From Halorussus halophilus (GTDB lineage Archaea > Halobacteriota > Halobacteria > Halobacteriales > Haladaptataceae): DNA of 64,000 bases. The position numbers and the translations under genes were made by a program. The notes under the pieces are model-generated. The model was not told the origin of the DNA. It made no database searches and saw only the letters and a list, made by a program, of their open reading frames with translations. Numbering within the stretch: position 1 is the stretch's first letter; each line of letters begins with the position of its first letter. Shown one piece after another: positions 51,727 to 60,560 of the stretch. The stretch spans positions 1,860,001 to 1,924,000 of the forward strand of contig NZ_CP044523.1 of the NCBI RefSeq assembly GCF_008831545.1, written 5' to 3'.

Positions 51727-52200
51727 GGTGGCCGACTGGTCGCCGGAGAGCGGCGTCGTACTCCGAGCGGTGGGCGTCCGTTCACCGATTCCGACGCGTC
51801 TGCCCTCCGTCAGACAAATGATTGATTTCGGAGAGACTGAAAGATAAACACACTACTGGTTGTAAATTTCTCGTTCGGGCGTGGTCTATCATCAACGTAG
51901 TTATGAGAAATGAGTCAACTTCACAGAACTTTTTGACTGAGACGAAAAGCAGGTACGGTGTCTCAGTCGGCTACTTTCGGGAGATGGGCCGCTCCCATCG
52001 AATCTATTTCTAGTTTGATACTAAAATAGAAAAGTTGGATAATTACCAGAATTTCGCTTAACCTTCTATAGTATCTTGATATTTTATAATCTATCCACGA
52101 GTAATTTAGAGTGAACGCTTGGTCCGGACGACGCGCTCGTGTGGTGCGCGGATGACCTCCTGGCCCGAACAGCGTGACGCTTCTCGTTGTCCAACCTACT
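51727..52200. other. AT-rich intergenic region
   Basis: About 470 bases of markedly lower GC without a credible gene; the 63-codon frame at 51822-52013 has no acidic bias and is not counted. It holds GATGGG (51983-51988) with CCCATC (51994-51999), a 6-bp dyad, and a long AT stretch (52010-52110) with several TATA-like words. Possibly a regulatory or formerly mobile segment. Confidence 0.5.
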
Positions 52201-52764
52201 ATGAAAGGGGAATATGCATTCTGTCCGAAAAGTGGTGCACGGCTCTCCGAGGAAATACACTACGACGAGTTCGGAAGGGGGTCGCGAACGCCGGTGAGAG
52301 ACGCCCATACGGGCGGCACGAAACCGGAAGGAGAACTGACGAACGGGTCGCTTCGGTCGTCACGCGTCGCCTTGTTCAACCACTTCCGTCGGTGTCACGA
52401 ACAACACGCCGATTCGTCGTGCAAGATGTACTCCCAGACTGCGCTCGCGTTCACTCGCCTGAAGCGGGCGGCGCGAGGCCGTCAGTCGTGGGACATGTAC
52501 GTCTGGTTCGCGCTCGGCCAACGACTCTATGACCTCGGGTACGAGGTGCAGTGGATGAACAGTCACGTCGAACCGCGGTGTCCCGACTGTGCGGGGCGAC
52601 TCAAGTACGACGCAACGGTCGAGCAGCAACTCAGAGCCCGGTGTGGGACCGACTGCACGGGTAACGACGGTGACAAACTCGAAGAGATACGGGAGACGGT
52701 CGCAGACCTCTACGTCCGCGCGTTCGAGGACGCGACCAGACCCGACGAGTTCGCGTTGCTGTAG
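52201..52764 (+). CDS. Haloarchaeal hypothetical protein with zinc ribbon
   Basis: 187 residues from ATG at 52201 (52174 is a longer choice). Only the second half looks typically haloarchaeal: DMYVWFALGQRLYDLGYEVQW, then a zinc ribbon PRCPDCAGRLKYD with ARCGTDCTG, and an acidic tail (EIRETVADLYVRAFEDAT). The first 70 residues are less acidic and may be non-coding or a different start may be used. Function unknown; the ribbon suggests nucleic-acid or protein binding. Confidence 0.55.
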   Translation: MKGEYAFCPKSGARLSEEIHYDEFGRGSRTPVRDAHTGGTKPEGELTNGSLRSSRVALFNHFRRCHEQHADSSCKMYSQTALAFTRLKRAARGRQSWDMYVWFALGQRLYDLGYEVQWMNSHVEPRCPDCAGRLKYDATVEQQLRARCGTDCTGNDGDKLEEIRETVADLYVRAFEDATRPDEFALL

Positions 52765-52829
52765 CCCCGGCCAGTTTCGAATCGCGCCGCGAACGACCTC
52801 GCCGATTTTCAAGCATGGTTAGAGAAGAC

Positions 52830-53873
52830 ATGCGGCTAGTGGAGATCATGGTGCAGACCGAACCTGCACAGGAGCGGATTCTGTCCTTGCTCGACGACGA
52901 GCAACTCGATTACACCGTGACAGATTCGGCGGACAAGGCTGGCTCTTCGGCCATCGTCACGCTGCCGCTCCCGACTCACACCGTCGAAACCGTCCAATCG
53001 CAACTGGACGAACTCGACGTGAACCACGACGCGTACACCGTCGTCGTCAACACCGAAGCCGTGGTCTCAGACGAGTCCGTGGACTCGTGGCCAGAAAACG
53101 ACGAAGAGACGATTACCCGGCGGCGTATCGCACGCGACGAACTCCACTCGAAAGCGGCGAACTTGCTCCCCGAACGGGTGACCTACCTGCTGATGACCGC
53201 GCTGAGTGCAGTGGTCGCCACTGCTGGCGTCTTGCTGGGGTCGATGCCGGTGATGGTCGGGTCGATGGTCATCGCCCCGTTGCTTGGCCCGTCGATGGCG
53301 ACCAGCGCGGCGACGGTCATCTCCGACAACGAACTGTTCGTTCGGAGCGCGAAGTATCAGGCGCTCGGAAGCGTTGTCGGACTCGTCAGTGCGTTGGGCT
53401 TCGCGCTCCTCGCGAAGACGATAGCCGTCCCGTCCGCCGAGATGGACCTCCAGACCAGTCTCCAACTGAGCCATCACACGTCGCCGACGTTCCTGCTCGT
53501 GTCCGTCGCACTCTGTGCGGGCATCGCAGGAGCGATTAGCCTCTCGACCAGCGGGATGACCTCGCTCGTCGGCGTGATGATAGCCGCGGCGGTCATGCCA
53601 CCTATCGGCGTCGTCGGCGTCGGCATCGCGTGGTTTCGCCCGACGGTCGTCCTCGGCTCTGGGGCGGTGGTTCTGGTGAACATGTTCTCCATCAACCTCG
53701 CGGCCATCGTCGGCCTGTGGTACTTCGGCTACCATCCCGAAGACTGGACGACCTTACGGGAGACGCGGAGTCGCATCCTCAAACGAATCCTCGTCCTCGC
53801 TGCACTCGTCGGCGCGTTGGCGCTGTTCCTCTCGAACGTAGAACACAGTCTGCCGGTGCTTCATCTCCCATGA
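52830..53873 (+). CDS. DUF389/TIGR00341 membrane protein
   Basis: 347 residues; ATG at 52830 preferred since the family begins MRLVEIMV, while ATG at 52815 adds five residues. Soluble N-terminal part (about 1-105), then six or so helices with VAPLLGPSMATSAATV- and MTSLVGVMIAAAVMPPIGVVG-like segments of the DUF389 repeat. Function uncertain, transporter-like. Overlaps the next gene by 4 nt (ATGA), starting a long chain of co-oriented membrane genes. Confidence 0.85.
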   Translation: MRLVEIMVQTEPAQERILSLLDDEQLDYTVTDSADKAGSSAIVTLPLPTHTVETVQSQLDELDVNHDAYTVVVNTEAVVSDESVDSWPENDEETITRRRIARDELHSKAANLLPERVTYLLMTALSAVVATAGVLLGSMPVMVGSMVIAPLLGPSMATSAATVISDNELFVRSAKYQALGSVVGLVSALGFALLAKTIAVPSAEMDLQTSLQLSHHTSPTFLLVSVALCAGIAGAISLSTSGMTSLVGVMIAAAVMPPIGVVGVGIAWFRPTVVLGSGAVVLVNMFSINLAAIVGLWYFGYHPEDWTTLRETRSRILKRILVLAALVGALALFLSNVEHSLPVLHLP

Positions 53874-55024
53874 CCACGGAACGCTCAGACACGACCGACG
53901 CTGACGGTATCGGCTCCGAAACAGATTCGGGCGACGCACGAACCGAGTCGTTCGTCCGAGTCCTGGTGTACGCGCTGGGCGTCCTCGCGAAGTTCGTCTC
54001 GCTCGTTGCGTCCATCGCGGCGGTCACGATACGACTCGTCCTCGCAGTCGTCACGAACGACGACAACCAGCGGCGCGCGCGCCGTTGGTTCCTCCTCGAA
54101 GGCAACCGCTGGATAATCATCGGTGCGCTCGTCGTGCTGATATTCGTCGGCTCGGTGACGCTCGGCTTGAGCAACGTCATCGGTGTCCGCGAGAGCAGTT
54201 TCGTGACGACGATGTTCTCGACCATCATCGCGGGCCTGTTCTCGTTCGTCCCGCTGGTCATCGCAGTGAACCAGTTGACGATTTCGCGGCTGTTCGGCAC
54301 GCCCGACAGACTTCGCCAACGAATCGACGGCGTCGAGGAGTTCCGCCGCAGCGTAGAGTCGCTCGCGACCGACACCGTCGTCAGTCCGACCGACCCCGCG
54401 GCGTTCCTCGCCATCGTCGCCGAGACGATGCGCGACCGGGCCGAGAAGTTGGACGAGACCAGCGACGTCGCCGACGAGGAAGTTCGCGCGGAACTGACGC
54501 AACTGGTCGAGGCAGTCACCGAGCAGAGCGAACAGATAGAAGCCGTGGTCGTTGGCGACCCCGAGTTGTTCGTCGCCCTACTCCCGACGATAGACGACGA
54601 CTACTCGGGACAAGCGACTCGCATTCGAAGACTCCTCACTGTCTACGGCGACGACCTCTCCGTCGAGTCCATCGAGTTGCTCGAAGAAATGCGGGAGACG
54701 TACCTCTCGGTGGACGTCGCGCGCCAGTACTTCAAGGTCATCTACCTCCAGCAGGAGTTGGCGACGCTCTCGCGCCTGCTGGCTTACAGCGGGACGACCG
54801 CGTTCCTGACCTCGACGCTGGTCATCATGATTTACGCGAGCGGCTACCCGCCAGCGGTCAGCGAGTTCGTGTTGCTGGTACTCGTGGCGCTCTCGCTGGG
54901 CGTCGCGTTCGCGCCACTCGCCATCCTCTTTGCGTTCGTCATCCGCATCGCAACCGTCGTCAAGCGAACGTCCGCGCCCGGCGCGTTCACGCCGAAGGGC
55001 GAGCGCCCTGCGCACGCGAGGTGA
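53870..55024 (+). CDS. Haloarchaeal membrane protein of unknown function
   Basis: 384 residues. About five membrane helices: 25-50, 72-95, 108-130 at the N-terminal side and two near 300-350; between them a soluble acidic helix-rich region (about 150-290, LSVESIELLEEMRETYLSVDVARQYF). The C-terminus ends basic (KRTSAPGAFTPKGERPAHAR). No family recognised. Coupled to DUF389 upstream by a 4-nt overlap and to the lipoprotein gene 3 nt downstream. Confidence 0.75.
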   Translation: MTTERSDTTDADGIGSETDSGDARTESFVRVLVYALGVLAKFVSLVASIAAVTIRLVLAVVTNDDNQRRARRWFLLEGNRWIIIGALVVLIFVGSVTLGLSNVIGVRESSFVTTMFSTIIAGLFSFVPLVIAVNQLTISRLFGTPDRLRQRIDGVEEFRRSVESLATDTVVSPTDPAAFLAIVAETMRDRAEKLDETSDVADEEVRAELTQLVEAVTEQSEQIEAVVVGDPELFVALLPTIDDDYSGQATRIRRLLTVYGDDLSVESIELLEEMRETYLSVDVARQYFKVIYLQQELATLSRLLAYSGTTAFLTSTLVIMIYASGYPPAVSEFVLLVLVALSLGVAFAPLAILFAFVIRIATVVKRTSAPGAFTPKGERPAHAR

Positions 55025-55027
55025 CCC

Positions 55028-56059
55028 ATGACGAACGACGACCACTCCCGAACCACCCGTCGCAGGTTCCTCGAACTCGGTGCAGGAGCCGCGAACGTCG
55101 CACTCGCGGGCTGTTTCGGCGGCGATGAATCGTCGCCGCCGACCGGCGAGACCACCAACCTCCCGAACCTCGACGAGGACGACGACCGCTGGCACGTCGC
55201 CGATTCGCCGACCCAGATGACGCTCTACGACGCGGTGCGGACCCGTGCCGGACCCTACGCGGTCGGCGAGGGCGGCCGCGTCCTCGGGCGACTCGACGGC
55301 GAGTGGCAGGTCGAACTGGAGAGTGGCCCCCGGGGCGAACACAACGGACTCCACGGCGCGGACGCCACCGCGAACGGTCGCCACCTCTGGTTCTGCGGTG
55401 ACAGCGGCGTCGTCGGGCGGTACGCGGTGGGCGACGGCGAACTGACGGACTTCTCGGCTCCGAAAGGTAAGACTTCGACGTGGGAGGACCTCGCCGTCGC
55501 CGGTCTCGCCGGACAGGAGTGGCTCTACCTCGTGAACGGCTCCGGCGAACTCCTGCGTGGCAAACACGACGGCGACGACGTGACGTGGGAGTCGGTCGTC
55601 AAACCGGGGTCGGGGTCGAGCGCGGCCGCAGTGGCCTTCGTCAATCGCGGCACGGGCTACGTCTGTGACACCTCAGGTAACGTCTTCCAGACCATCGACG
55701 CTGGCAGCGAGTGGCGACGCATCGGCATCGACCACGCAGGCGCGAACTTCCACGACGTGGCCGCCCAAGGCGCAGACGACGTGTCGGTCGCGGCCGATTC
55801 CGGCGGGATGTTCCAGTACAACGGCTTCACGTGGACGCGGCTCTCGGCGGGCGAGAACGCGATTCGTACCGTCGAGCGCAACAAGCACATCGGACTGGCC
55901 GCCGACTCGACAGGCGTCGTCTACGAACTCTCTCGCGGTGGCTGGCAGGCCGTCGGCGTCGGCGACGGTAACGGACTCCACGGGGTCGTTCTCGGGACCA
56001 CCGACGTGCCGGACGTGGCCGTCGGCGCGAGTGGGACGATTCTCGAACATCCACGATGA
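55028..56059 (+). CDS. Tat lipoprotein with Ycf48/BNR-like beta-propeller
   Basis: 343 residues. Tat signal TTRRRFLELG and lipobox LAGC (Cys about 29), then repeated blades of 40-45 residues (GYVCDTSGNVFQTIDAGSEW, DVSVAADSGGMFQYNGFTWTRL, HIGLAADSTGVVYELSRGGW). These resemble Ycf48/photosystem-assembly and WD/BNR propellers. Exposed on the cell surface, probably for protein-protein contacts. Co-transcribed with the two upstream membrane genes, so it may be their outside partner (inference). Confidence 0.82.
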   Translation: MTNDDHSRTTRRRFLELGAGAANVALAGCFGGDESSPPTGETTNLPNLDEDDDRWHVADSPTQMTLYDAVRTRAGPYAVGEGGRVLGRLDGEWQVELESGPRGEHNGLHGADATANGRHLWFCGDSGVVGRYAVGDGELTDFSAPKGKTSTWEDLAVAGLAGQEWLYLVNGSGELLRGKHDGDDVTWESVVKPGSGSSAAAVAFVNRGTGYVCDTSGNVFQTIDAGSEWRRIGIDHAGANFHDVAAQGADDVSVAADSGGMFQYNGFTWTRLSAGENAIRTVERNKHIGLAADSTGVVYELSRGGWQAVGVGDGNGLHGVVLGTTDVPDVAVGASGTILEHPR

Positions 56060-56098
56060 GCGACCGCTACTGTGTAAGCAACTACAGTAAGTTTCTGG

Positions 56099-56290
56099 TT
56101 TTTATGTGTTGAAATCATATCTCTATACGAACCCGGCCCGGCCGACGCCCCCTTCGGGGCGGATGACGCTCGGCTTTCCAGCCGGGACTCTGGCACTCGT
56201 TTTCGACCTGTACCGGCTTCGACCACTACCACTCGCTCGAACGCGGGGCGTTCGAGCGACGAGTTGCGCAATCGGCACACCCAGACAGAC
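56099..56290 (+). promoter_or_regulatory. Promoter and hairpin-rich leader of the permease gene
   Basis: TTTTTATG at 56099-56106 would place a transcript start near 56130, leaving a leader of about 160 nt, long for haloarchaea. It can form three hairpins: CGCCCC/GGGGCG (56146-56161), CTCGGCT/AGCCGGG (56169-56186) and a perfect 12-bp stem with 3-nt loop (56233-56259) ending 31 nt before the ATG. No U-run follows any of them. Candidate metal- or protein-responsive leader, or read-through control. Confidence 0.5.
56233..56259. repeat. Perfect 12-bp inverted repeat with GGG loop
   Basis: TCGCTCGAACGC (56233-56244) and GCGTTCGAGCGA (56248-56259) are exact reverse complements around GGG, the strongest dyad in the window. 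It ends about 31 nt before the permease start codon. Confidence 0.65.
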
Positions 56291-57772
56291 ATGATAGGAA
56301 CACTATTCGACGGTCTCGGTCTCGCGGCCGAGATGGCGTGGGAGACGTGGTGGGCGCTCGTCCTCGGGTTTACCATCACGGGCGCGGTCGAACAGTTCGT
56401 CAGCGACGAGCAGATGACGAGCTATCTCGGCGACGACGGCTGGCGAGAGGTCGGTCTCGGGACGCTGTTCGGGGCGGTCTCCTCCAGTTGTTCGTTCTCG
56501 GCCGTCGCCACCGCGAAAGCACTGTTCAAGAAAGGAGCCTCGGGCGTCGCCGCGCTCGCGGCGTTCATGTTCGCCGCGACGGACCTCGTGGCCGAACTCG
56601 GACTCGTGATGTGGATTCTGCTCGGGTGGGAGTTCGTCCTCGCGGACTTCGTTGGGGGCGTCGTCGCCGTCGTCGTCATGGCGTACGTCTACCGCGAGTA
56701 CGTGCCCGACGAGTGGTTCGAGACCGCCCGCGAACACGCGCTCGCGCTCGACGAAGTGACCTGCCCGGCCTGCGAGATGGCGGCCGACCCCGAGGACGAG
56801 GAGACCGTCAAGAGCGAAGTCGGCGGCACCACCGAGTACTTCTGCTGTGGCGGCTGTCTCCGGGCGTATCGGAATCGAACAGACACCGACGCGGACGACG
56901 CCGAAGCGTCGTCCGTGAGCGCGAACGGCGACTGGGCAGACGACCTCACGTCGCTCTCCGGATGGAAGAAAGCCGCGACCAACAGCGTCCGCGAGTGGGA
57001 CATGCTCTGGGACGACATCGCCATCGGCTTCCTGCTCGCCGGTCTCATCGCCGCGTTCGTCCCGCGAGCGTGGTGGACCTCGCTGTTCGGCTTCGGCGCG
57101 CAGGGCAGCCTGACGTGGGTCTTCGCCGGCGCGATTTTGGGGGTCGTCGTGGGTGTCGTCACGTTCATCTGCTCGGTCGGTAACGTCCCGTTCGCGCTCG
57201 TGCTGTGGACGAACGGGATTCCCTTCGGCGCGGTGTTGTCGTTCATCTACGCCGACCTCATCATCCCGCCAATCGTGAACGCCTACCGGCGCTACTACGG
57301 CAAGCGAATGGCCGCGGTCATCTTCGCCGTGACGGCGTTCGGCGCTGTCGTCGCTGGTGTGTTCGTCCACTTCGCGTTCGACCTGACTGGATTGATTCCC
57401 GCCCAAGGCACTACAGGCGGCACCGCGCCACACGGCTACACGCTCGTCCTCAACCTGCTGTTCACGCCGATTTTCCTCGCGCAAGTCGTCGCGACCTACG
57501 GCCACGAGGATCTCGGCGAGTGGCTGGTCGCCTTGCCGGGCGTCGTCGGCCCGTATCTCTACGGACTGGAGAAGGCGTCTGGTCACCTCGCTACAGCAGG
57601 CCGCGCGCTCACTCACGGCGCGAAAGAACTCGGGGAGGCCCTGTGGCGAGCAAGCCAACTCACCGCGAAACTGCTCCGTGCGCTCGCCAGAGCCGTGAGC
57701 GCAATCGGTGCGGCAGTCGCGACGGCCGTGGTACAACTGCTCGAAGCCTACCGGGATTTCCGCGACGCATGA
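56291..57772 (+). CDS. UPF0718/ArsP-type permease with embedded YHS-like metal domain
   Basis: 493 residues. Two sets of four to five helices. First half has the family segment SSSCSFSAVATAKALFKKGAS; second half repeats it as FICSVGNVPFALVLWTNGIPFGAVLSF. Between the halves, on the cytoplasmic side (about 155-200), lies a YHS/TRASH-like block: CPACEM, a spacer, then YFCCGGCLRAY. Known relatives (ArsP) export organoarsenicals; others are of unknown metal or organic substrate. Extra Cys-rich domain suggests metal sensing or delivery. The C-terminal tail (about 440-493) is helical and amphipathic. ATG at 56291 chosen; overlaps the next start by 4 nt. Confidence 0.85.
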   Translation: MIGTLFDGLGLAAEMAWETWWALVLGFTITGAVEQFVSDEQMTSYLGDDGWREVGLGTLFGAVSSSCSFSAVATAKALFKKGASGVAALAAFMFAATDLVAELGLVMWILLGWEFVLADFVGGVVAVVVMAYVYREYVPDEWFETAREHALALDEVTCPACEMAADPEDEETVKSEVGGTTEYFCCGGCLRAYRNRTDTDADDAEASSVSANGDWADDLTSLSGWKKAATNSVREWDMLWDDIAIGFLLAGLIAAFVPRAWWTSLFGFGAQGSLTWVFAGAILGVVVGVVTFICSVGNVPFALVLWTNGIPFGAVLSFIYADLIIPPIVNAYRRYYGKRMAAVIFAVTAFGAVVAGVFVHFAFDLTGLIPAQGTTGGTAPHGYTLVLNLLFTPIFLAQVVATYGHEDLGEWLVALPGVVGPYLYGLEKASGHLATAGRALTHGAKELGEALWRASQLTAKLLRALARAVSAIGAAVATAVVQLLEAYRDFRDA

Positions 57773-59022
57773 GCCTCGAAGAGTCTCGCGGCCTCGTTGG
57801 CTTTCGAGACGTGCTGGAACGCGAACCCGGGTTGTTCACGCTCGCAGTCCTCACGCTCGGCGTCAACCTCTCCGTCGGCGTCCTCGCGCGCTACGTCCCG
57901 GCGTATCTCCGGGCGTTCGGTGTCGGACCGATTCTCGTCGGCGTCGTCTGGAGCGGTTGGTTGCTCGCGCGGGCCGCACTCCCGTACGTCGGCCACGAGG
58001 CGCTCGCCGACCTACACCCGCGCGCCCTGCTCGCTGGCTTCGGCACGCTGGCGATGCTCGGCCTGTTCGTCTGGCTCGCGGCCCCGCACGCCGAGTCGTT
58101 CGATCCGTGGCTCTGGGTTCTCGCGGGCGGGGTCGTCTTGGAGACGTGGCGCTCGCACGGCCCCGGCGTCACCTTCACCGTCGAAGGTCGGAACCTCTCG
58201 ACCGACCGTTTCGCTCGGAGCCTTGCGACGACACGGACGTTCCGCCGCGTCGGCGTTCTGTTAGGCCTCAGTCTGCTCGTCGTGCTGTTCGCCATGGTGG
58301 GCGAGTTCAGGCCGGGGTTCCAACTCGTCGTCGCAGTCGTCGCATGCGTCGGCGCGGCCGCCACGGTCGGACGCATCGTTCTCGGCGAGACGGACCTCGA
58401 AGTGCCCCTCCGGTCGCCGCCGAGTAGCGAGCGAGTTCGCTCGGACTTGACGGAGTTGGCGACACAACGTCGGTCGCTGTTGCTCGGCGATACGCTGTTC
58501 CGGTTCGCACGCGGCATGTTCTACCCGTTCCTGATTCTCGTCGTCGCAGACAGAGCAGTGCCGGCACAGGTCGCAGGCTTCTCGCTGTCGCCGATCGCCA
58601 TCTTCACCGTCGCACTCGTCGCCGAGACGCTACTCGCGCTCGTCGCCTCGATGCCCGCGACTAGACTCGCAGACGAACTCGGCTCCCTGCCGGTCGCAAT
58701 CGGTGGGGTACTCGTCGTCGCGTTCGTCCCGCTGGGTCTGGCCAGTGTGCCGCCGACTCTCCTCGGTATCTCGGTACTGTTCGCGTGTTTCGGTCTCGGC
58801 GTGGCGACTCGCCCGGTTCGTCGTTCGCTGGTCGCTCGCGCGACCCGCGAAGTCGGTAGAGACGCGGCGGAGTTGTACCGCCTCGTTCGCCGCCTGCTCG
58901 TCGTGCCGAGCGCCATCGTCGGCGGACTGCTGTACGCGAACTCGCCGACGATGGCGCTCGGGCTGGCGACGTCGGTTGCACTGCTCGGTTGCTGGGAACT
59001 CCTGCGGCATTCGACCCAATGA
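57769..59022 (+). CDS. MFS transporter
   Basis: 417 residues, about 12 helices. Starts within a 4-nt ATGA overlap after the permease and ends in a 4-nt overlap with the oxidase gene. LGVNLSVGVLARYVPAYLRAFGVGPILVGVVWSGWLLARA shows the helix 1-2 pattern; GRNLSTDRFARSLATTRTFRRVGVL follows. Not a typical sugar-phosphate type; the substrate is unknown. Cotranslation with permease and oxidase suggests a common function around metals or cofactors (inference). Confidence 0.82.
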   Translation: MSLEESRGLVGFRDVLEREPGLFTLAVLTLGVNLSVGVLARYVPAYLRAFGVGPILVGVVWSGWLLARAALPYVGHEALADLHPRALLAGFGTLAMLGLFVWLAAPHAESFDPWLWVLAGGVVLETWRSHGPGVTFTVEGRNLSTDRFARSLATTRTFRRVGVLLGLSLLVVLFAMVGEFRPGFQLVVAVVACVGAAATVGRIVLGETDLEVPLRSPPSSERVRSDLTELATQRRSLLLGDTLFRFARGMFYPFLILVVADRAVPAQVAGFSLSPIAIFTVALVAETLLALVASMPATRLADELGSLPVAIGGVLVVAFVPLGLASVPPTLLGISVLFACFGLGVATRPVRRSLVARATREVGRDAAELYRLVRRLLVVPSAIVGGLLYANSPTMALGLATSVALLGCWELLRHSTQ

Positions 59023-60560
59023 CTCACGCGCACAAACCTGCCGGACCCACGCGGTGGCTCACGACGCTCGACCACCGCGACATCGGCCTGCTGTACGTCG
59101 CTTTCGGCCTTCTCGCGGGGTTCCTCGGCGGGTTCGACGCGCTGATGCTCAGGACCGACCTGCTCACGTCGCACGCCGACTTCTGGGGCCAGCGCACCTA
59201 CGACGCGCTCTTTACGACCCACGGACTCACCATGCTGTTCCTGTTCGCGGGGCCGGTCATCTTCGGCGTGGGTAACTACGTCGTCCCCCTGCTTGTCGGG
59301 GCGGACGACATGGCGTTTCCGCGCGTGAACGCCGTCGCCTTCTGGATGCTCCCACCCGCCGCGATGCTCCTCCGCGCGGGCATCGTGACGGACGTTCTCG
59401 GCTTCGAGTCGATTCGGCCGCCCGCAGTCGGGTGGACGCTGTACACCCCGATGACCGCCGAGATGCCGAACCCGGAAGTCGATTTGCTGTTGCTCGGCCT
59501 GCACCTTTCAGGGGTCAGCACCATCATGAGCGGAATCAACTTCGTCGTGACCATCGTCGAAGAACGCGACGACGAACGAGTCCCGTGGGCGGACCTCGAC
59601 ATCTTCTCGTGGACGATGCTGACCACGGGCGGACTGGTCGTCTTCGCGTTCCCGATGCTCGGCAGTGCCCTGCTCATGCTGCTGCTCGACCGAAACGTCG
59701 GCACGACGTTCTTCACGGTCGAAGGCGGCGGACCACTGCTCTGGCAACACCTGTTCTGGTTCTTCGGACACCCCGAGGTGTACATCCTCGTCCTACCGCC
59801 GATGGGGCTGGTGAGCCTGATTCTGCCGCGATTTTCGGGCCGGAAACTGTTCGGCAAGACCGCCGTGGTCTACTCGACGCTCGGCATCGGCGTCCTCGCG
59901 TTCGGTGTCTGGGCACACCACATGTTCGTTGCGGGTCTCGACCCCAGAATTCAGGCGAGTTTCATGGCCGTGACGCTCGCCATCGCGGTGCCGAGCGCCG
60001 TCAAGACGTTTAACTGGATTGCGACGATGTGGAACGGCAGAGTGCGACTCACCGCGCCGATGCTGTTCTGCGTGGGAGCCATCGCAAACTTTGTCGTCGG
60101 TGGCGTCACGGGCGTCTTTCTGGCGGCGATTCCCGTCGATGTACTGCTCCACGACACCTACTACGTGGTCGGACACTTCCACTTCATGCTCGTCGGCATG
60201 AGCGTCTACGGCCTGTTCGCGGGCGTCTACTACTGGTTCCCGCTGGTGACCGGCCGGATGTACGACGAGGGACTCGCGAAGTTGCACTTCTGGCTGACGC
60301 AAGTTGGCCTGCTGGTCGCCTTTTTCGTCATGCTGTTGCTCGGGATGGACGGTCTTCCACGGAGAATGGCGACGTATCCCTCACAGTTCGTGCCGCTCCA
60401 GCAGGTGGCGACGATTGGTGCGTACCTCATCGGACTCGCGCAGGTCTTCTGGGTCGGCAACGTCGTCTGGGGCCTGCTCGTCGGTCCCGAAGCAGCGACG
60501 GACCCGTGGGAGTTGGAGCGCGACGGACTGCTCACGACCGAATGGGAGGAAGAACGATGA
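59019..60560 (+). CDS. A-type heme-copper oxidase subunit I, stand-alone
   Basis: 513 residues. All catalytic residues seen: low-spin heme His68 (TTHGLT) and His388, high-spin heme His386 (GHFHF), copper B ligands His251, His300 and His301, and Tyr255 in HPEVY for the His-Tyr crosslink. Glu253 of that motif and Lys329 (VPSAVKTFNW) fit D- and K-type proton channels of class A1. About twelve helices. Subunit II (copper A) and III are not in this stretch. It overlaps the MFS gene upstream by 4 nt and a 21-codon ORF downstream by 4 nt. The electron donor is unknown. Confidence 0.92.
   Translation: MTHAHKPAGPTRWLTTLDHRDIGLLYVAFGLLAGFLGGFDALMLRTDLLTSHADFWGQRTYDALFTTHGLTMLFLFAGPVIFGVGNYVVPLLVGADDMAFPRVNAVAFWMLPPAAMLLRAGIVTDVLGFESIRPPAVGWTLYTPMTAEMPNPEVDLLLLGLHLSGVSTIMSGINFVVTIVEERDDERVPWADLDIFSWTMLTTGGLVVFAFPMLGSALLMLLLDRNVGTTFFTVEGGGPLLWQHLFWFFGHPEVYILVLPPMGLVSLILPRFSGRKLFGKTAVVYSTLGIGVLAFGVWAHHMFVAGLDPRIQASFMAVTLAIAVPSAVKTFNWIATMWNGRVRLTAPMLFCVGAIANFVVGGVTGVFLAAIPVDVLLHDTYYVVGHFHFMLVGMSVYGLFAGVYYWFPLVTGRMYDEGLAKLHFWLTQVGLLVAFFVMLLLGMDGLPRRMATYPSQFVPLQQVATIGAYLIGLAQVFWVGNVVWGLLVGPEAATDPWELERDGLLTTEWEEER

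Follow-up and report, generated by a model that had tools for sequence, protein, structure and literature searches.

The window analysed here is a stretch of 64,000 nucleotides (nt) of the archaeon Halorussus halophilus (contig NZ_CP044523.1, positions 1,860,001 to 1,924,000 of the forward strand), which carries a cluster of genes for an ArsP_1 permease, a cysteine-rich protein of 187 amino acids (ZnP187), a DUF389 protein, a further membrane protein, a YCF48-like protein, an MFS-like transporter and the cytochrome oxidase subunit I (COX1). The leader of the permease gene contains a hairpin (56135-56181) that is very probably one copy of a conserved RNA element acting in cis on this set of genes, and another copy lies upstream of the ZnP187 gene. 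The features of the locus are as follows:

56098..56106, + strand: TATA-like promoter element GTTTTTATG of the permease transcript (from the sequence)
56127..56189, + strand: conserved leader RNA element, copy 2, as matched by the model (R1, 53.4 bits, E 2e-9, search of the loci)
56135..56142, + strand: 5′ strand of the outer helix of copy 2, GGCC-C-GGC, paired with 56168-56175, with a C.C mismatch of 56139 opposite 56171 (alignment and covariation; register set by hand)
56143..56145, + strand: non-bulged strand of the kink-turn of copy 2, C-G-A, positions 3n, 2n and 1n (G at 2n and A at 1n in all 57 best matches)
56146..56161, + strand: inner hairpin (C-stem) of copy 2, CGCCCC-CUUC-GGGGCG (folding)
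56162..56167, + strand: bulged strand of the kink-turn of copy 2, GAU-GA-C, positions L1-L3, 1b, 2b and 3b (core counts in the 57 best matches)
56168..56175, + strand: 3′ strand of the outer helix of copy 2, GCU-C-GGCU (alignment; register set by hand)
56179..56181, + strand: conserved CAG after the helix of copy 2 (alignment A4)
56233..56259, + strand: perfect 12-bp stem with a GGG loop, real but not conserved (repeat search, shuffles, relatives)
52082..52089, + strand: TATA-like element of copy 1 (from the sequence)
52113..52180, + strand: conserved leader RNA element, copy 1 (64.7 bits, E 4.8e-12, search of the loci; in both training sets)
52121..52128 and 52158..52165, + strand: outer helix of copy 1; 52129..52131 and 52151..52156, its kink-turn; 52170..52172, its CAG (alignment)
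52201..52764, + strand: gene of ZnP187, 187 amino acids, cysteine-rich, zinc-ribbon-like (list of open reading frames, alignment)
52815..53873, + strand: DUF389 membrane protein gene (domain search)
53630..55024, + strand: membrane protein gene, from its first start codon as listed and, so listed, overlapping the DUF389 gene (list of open reading frames)
55028..56059, + strand: YCF48-like protein gene with a Tat/lipobox-like N-terminus read by eye (PSII_BNR, E 1.3e-4, below the cut-off)
56291..57772, + strand: ArsP_1 permease gene, 493 amino acids with an internal cysteine-rich stretch (Pfam ArsP_1, E 5e-69)
57769..59022, + strand: MFS-like transporter gene, its ATG at 57769 read from the sequence and overlapping the permease stop (Pfam match below the cut-off)
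59019..60560, + strand: cytochrome oxidase subunit I gene, with a likely ATG at 59019 (listed from TTG 58989; domain search)

The element, of ~60 nt as a whole, is composed of an outer helix of ~7 pairs interrupted by a single pyrimidine-pyrimidine mismatch, a kink-turn core where GA stands opposite GAU-GA, a variable inner hairpin and, after the helix, a CAG. Copy 1 extends from hairpin to CAG over 52121-52172, ~30 nt upstream of the ZnP187 gene. A covariation analysis in relatives, as proposed by an earlier sequence-only reading of this DNA, revealed that both helices of the first hairpin of the permease leader covary. In the seed alignment A2, with nine copies (two from the window, one each from genomes G013, G022, G023 and G026, two from G032, and one from Haloterrigena salina, locus L101) and a structure of 12 pairs, 96.2% of 106 cells were paired, changes on both sides occurred at 6 of the 12 pairs, and the covariation score of 0.359 was reached by none of 500 shuffled alignments (0.154 +/- 0.030), while sliding the partner strand by 1-3 columns dropped the pairing to 20-51%. 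An alignment of 63 matches (A3) showed 95.9% of paired cells, both-sided changes at 10/12 pairs and at most 48.4% pairing in the slid versions, figures that lean towards the proposed structure because the alignment had been fitted to it. Moreover, RNAalifold applied to a MAFFT alignment of 48 sequences, which are the 63 matches minus 15 near-duplicates or weak matches, found the identical two helices, with both-sided changes at 8 of the 12 predicted pairs. The terminal CAG (columns 67-69 of the 48-sequence alignment A4) is kept as C in 37, A in 42 and G in 45 of the 48.

Core, spacing and reading-frame counts were taken over the 57 best-scoring of the 63 matches. A Y-G-A strand faces GAU-GA-N, with 2n G, 1n A, L2 A, L3 U, 1b G and 2b A present in 57/57 each and L1 being G in 54 and A in the other 3, an invariance that is partly the product of selection, since the core served as bait in the first searches. 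The inner hairpin, of 13-24 nt, folds as such in 56/57 cases (the exception is a weak match in L200), and its number of pairs rises with the length of the insert (r 0.83). The arms of the outer helix are spaced by 23-34 nt (16 in one weak match). In the paired columns, 30 G-U pairs were counted versus 14 A-C cells (binomial p 0.011, with cells that are not independent), as expected for an RNA of the element strand. An AT-rich promoter-like word starts 28-31 nt upstream of the model match in 44/57 cases, and one is found between -45 and -14 in 52/57, for a word loosely defined and counted without a shuffle control; this position suggests that the element begins at or near the 5′ end of the transcript.

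The named relatives of the permease locus were mostly haloarchaea, Haladaptatus among them. Upstream of the permease homologues of L006, L007 and L009 the first hairpin was shared with the window and the 12-bp stem was not, the common motif being a CCYGG-type arm, YGACGC, a hairpin and then GCGGATGA. No element was found before the permease in L004 and L005, which hold the closest permease homologues and belong to the same genus. A search of the own genome with the core pattern gave 15 matches, of which inspection kept one as a true second copy (52121-52172). A stricter pattern matched in 64 of 392 genomes of the order, mostly with coding-like sequences in the inspected loci, for which reason covariance models were built. 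Other core matches of simple patterns were discarded, the inspected ones resembling coding sequence apart from the named copies, and so were the short stretches of leader DNA that matched at other places (one in MFS-like coding DNA of L034, the others within long open frames), which we treated as chance.

The models R1, from the nine seeds, and R2, from the 48 sequences, were then searched against the order. R1 detected the element in 36/392 genomes at E <= 1e-3, and R2 in 62/392 at E <= 0.01, of which 35 (~9%) at E <= 1e-5; many of the weaker R2 matches (E > 1e-5) may be due to chance. Copy 2, a member of both training sets, obtained E 1.8e-8 with R1 and E 1.3e-10 with R2 in these whole-genome searches. 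In a class-wide search only genomes of the same order were among the matches listed, which thus offer no outgroup comparison. The 63 matches mentioned above come from a search with R1 of 45 sources, nearly all of them picked for holding matches to the element and not by gene. In 90 further loci with permease homologues, mostly from other subgroups or with short flanks, R1 gave five matches, all in L084, L085 and L101, apparently contigs of G022, G026 and G376.

The genes found behind the element are those of the window's own cluster. For 55 of the 63 matches, the first downstream gene of a reference set (the cluster plus three extra proteins) belonged to one of six cluster types: the ArsP permease in 26, ZnP187 in 18, DUF389 in 5, MFS in 3, YCF48-like in 2 and the membrane protein in 1. 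Other genes could intervene between element and reference gene, and copies within one locus are not independent. The remaining 8 precede a 119-amino-acid protein gene (3), the L195p gene (2), a PadR-like gene (1) or none (2), and all 61 assigned genes lie on the strand of the element. The seeds or their contigs account for 9 of the 55, and among the other matches 46 of 54 are located before cluster genes. Genomes G013 and G008 are without a permease copy, and there the element precedes ZnP187 instead. R2 also matched twice in G013 at sites that neither training set contains (G013:C1:3893104-3893187 and 3932293-3932376), and each of these matches stops 10 nt short of an independently found ZnP187 paralogue, at 3893198 and 3932387 respectively.

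The protein ZnP187 co-occurs with the element. It was detected in 53/392 genomes at E <= 1e-8, namely in 34 of the 35 genomes with an element at R2 E <= 1e-5 (all except G019) versus 19 of the 357 others (Fisher 3e-34, uncorrected for phylogeny), and a homologue was found in L101. In some genomes, such as G376, ZnP187 is divergent beside the element, and upstream of ZnP187 itself the searches found no copy. An alignment of 12 sequences (A5) shows invariant cysteines C8, C127, C130, C148 and C152 (window numbering); its assignment to a known family or solved fold was discarded, given that neither a curated family nor a solved relative matched. ZnP187 may be a regulator or simply a member of the pathway.

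Three loci deserve a separate mention. In L154 (G026) there are eight R2 matches, five of them within ~10 kb, before YCF48-like, MFS, membrane-protein and PadR-like genes, the number of elements apparently rising where the cluster has been split. The uncharacterised 119-amino-acid protein gene lies outside the main cluster, with the element before it in three genomes of one genus (L185 2195-2256, L191 4183-4244 and L187 4433-4494). In L218 the element adjoins a partial YCF48-like match, in what is possibly a decaying cluster; the source of this locus, G019, is the one strong element genome that has no ZnP187.

The permease leader itself had been described in the sequence-only reading as long and able to form three hairpins. 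The TATA-like GTTTTTATG at 56098-56106 would place the start of the transcript near 56129 and hence give a leader of ~160 nt. Its folding energy of -71 kcal/mol lies below the -60.7 +/- 4.3 of shuffled sequences (z -2.4, none of 200 equally stable), in agreement with that description. The stem highlighted in the same reading was also exact, an inverted repeat of 12 bp without mismatch around a GGG loop (arms 56233-56244 and 56248-56259) whose 3′ end lies 31 nt upstream of the ATG at 56291. When the spacer separating the element from the start was shuffled 200 times by dinucleotides, no stem of this length appeared. In 16 further permease-linked copies, perfect stems in this spacer reach no more than 3-9 bp, at the level of shuffles (the best, with 9 bp in L208, was equalled by 7 of 60), so the 12-bp stem was rejected as a functional part; it may be a local structure added in H. 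halophilus only. The expectation that the hairpins would be conserved in relatives was therefore borne out for the first of them, conserved and covarying, but not for the one on which attention had been placed.

Two features bear on how the element may work: it would stand at the 5′ ends of several transcripts from a single cluster (ArsP_1 permease, ZnP187, DUF389, MFS, YCF48-like, membrane protein and COX1), and its kink-turn is of the protein type. Together they suggest a leader RNA controlled by a protein. The explanation we favour, a cis-regulatory leader switched by a kink-turn-binding protein, has in our judgement about an even chance of being correct. The element would mark, and probably co-regulate, the units of this cluster from a position at or near the transcript 5′ end: an RNA-binding protein would recognise the kink-turn and lock the hairpin, and the locked hairpin would in turn change translation start or mRNA stability. 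The best candidate binder would be L7Ae, given that in archaea this protein is known to repress mRNAs by way of kink-turns in their leaders, which share the GAU bulge and the tandem G.A pairs (PMC6298567, PMC5539422), and ZnP187 may add specificity or metal sensing. Structure, covariation, position of the promoter-like word, recurrence on the same strand and co-occurrence are direct observations, from which we infer the binding of a protein, any ligand, and the direction and level of control. A more specific version, which we consider doubtful, is a new haloarchaeal RNA regulon where the kink-turn leader on several transcripts would switch a metal-permease/heme-copper-oxidase set through an RNA-binding ZnP187, alone or with L7Ae, as the metal- or redox-sensing partner.

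Several observations weigh against the protein-switched leader. L7Ae is universal in archaea (PMC5539422) but the element occurs in ~9% of the genomes, a distribution that L7Ae by itself leaves unexplained. Between element and (projected) start lie anywhere from ~10 to ~400 nt, and the sequence shows no sign of how translation or stability would be controlled. The folding rules of kink-turns (PMC6298567) give a mixed prediction: the pair -1b:-1n is G:C nearly throughout, for which no folding by ions only is predicted, whereas C at 3b, found in 39/57, favours ion-driven folding; according to the same work, every k-turn analysed folds upon L7Ae addition. RNAalifold, moreover, pairs 3n with 1b and 2n with L3 instead of forming the kink-turn. 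This 2n-L3 pair is G-U in 48/48 without any change, which would suit an invariant tertiary motif better than a helix. A second hairpin after the CAG (via ACAG) was unsupported, appearing in 15/48 sequences versus 11.0 in shuffles.

A riboswitch, in line with the riboswitch-like element guessed in the sequence-only reading, would bind a metal ion or small molecule by itself, through the hairpin with the kink-turn and its conserved unpaired positions, and would control the metal/respiration cluster without a dedicated protein. The strong conservation of the unpaired core, the common gene set with a metal-type permease and COX1, the presence of several copies per genome before pathway genes and the existence of kink-turns in known riboswitches (PMC3651934) are all compatible with such a switch, whereas its small size (only two stacked helices in ~60 nt), the lack of a second conserved hairpin and of any Rfam riboswitch match, and a conserved expression platform that was not seen, in an analysis where terminators and pairing of the ribosome site were not looked at systematically, make it a possible but rather unlikely solution. 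That guess was half right: covariation, recurrence and gene context support a structured regulatory RNA in the leader, while the riboswitch as such comes second to the protein-switched leader.

Less likely again is a constitutive structured cap at the 5′ end, which would protect the mRNA from decay or set its translation efficiency without sensing anything. The inferred 5′ position, the stability of the hairpins and an expression platform that was not found would suit this role, yet the restriction to one cluster and the near-invariant kink-turn nucleotides exceed the needs of a generic stabiliser. The other suggestion of the sequence-only reading, a DNA operator for a metal regulator, here taken as an inverted repeat lying close behind the promoter, is disfavoured and in our view very improbable: palindromic arms and a PadR/FUR-like gene behind one copy would be in line with it, but the half-sites have no fixed spacing, the insert between them folds as a hairpin and gains pairs with length, the sense orientation is kept in 61/61 assigned cases, and G-U exceeds A-C. 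Finally, regulation by an upstream reading frame from the AUG inside GAUGA, invariant in 57/57 and opening in the window a frame of 43 codons (56163-56294) whose TGA overlaps the permease ATG (ATGA), is still less probable, as such frames range from 3 to 571 codons with no conserved length. A conserved upstream peptide was rejected as well; the 43-codon frame is not conserved in relatives.

Among known systems, the closest to the element are the kink-turns in the 5′-leaders of archaeal l7ae mRNAs (Daume 2017 PMC5539422; Huang 2019 PMC6298567), reported also for Haloferax volcanii l7ae, which have similar kink-turn strands. The present element differs in that it precedes the permease/oxidase cluster, none of the 61 assigned downstream genes being l7ae; in the conservation of sequence and helices across genera; in its location at the inferred transcript 5′ end and not beside the ribosome site; and in having a pyrimidine mismatch and a CAG that are both conserved. 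Archaeal ribosomal-protein leaders (Eckert and Weinberg 2020 PMC7247131) are likewise covarying cis-regulatory RNAs, one of them in Halobacteria, but the Halobacteria motif precedes rpsO operons and the element other genes, a distinction drawn by gene context and not base by base. The fluoride (crcB) riboswitch, known from archaea too as a leader RNA that precedes genes for transport, is set apart by the absence of Rfam matches to the element. The 4227 Rfam families, searched at gathering score against the window and 12 copy-holding loci, gave no match to the element and only a tRNA elsewhere in the window; with the limit relaxed to E 10, the two window copies obtained only chance-level matches. 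Among the open papers listed by searches on haloarchaeal riboswitches and structured RNAs, L7Ae and kink-turns, and candidate RNAs of Halobacteria, we recognised none describing this element, which may still figure as a motif in a survey supplement. Altogether, the kink-turn leader as a kind is known, while this family, its gene set and its 5′-terminal position appear new, and the RNA control element is probably one not described before. The number of cis-regulatory RNAs known from archaea is small (PMC7247131), and a fluoride switch was named in 2021 as the only experimentally determined natural archaeal riboswitch (PMC8241225). A covarying leader element before one cluster in ~9% of the sampled haloarchaeal genomes would offer a genetically tractable way to test whether dedicated regulons are run by kink-turn-binding proteins, and it links uncharacterised genes (ZnP187, DUF389, the permease and the oxidase subunit) to one pathway.

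As for the genes of the cluster, the metal-type permease announced downstream of the leader was recovered as an ArsP_1 protein, which also resembles the SO_0444 Cu/Zn efflux proteins (E 1.7e-22, below the curated cut-off); the permease homologue of L202 showed a weak TRASH-domain match. The oxidase subunit I gene (59019-60560) is a member of the permease/MFS cluster. Shortly before its start, inside the MFS-like gene (58906-58961), lies a perfect 19-bp inverted repeat with an 18-nt loop, longer than the 12-bp stem of the permease leader.
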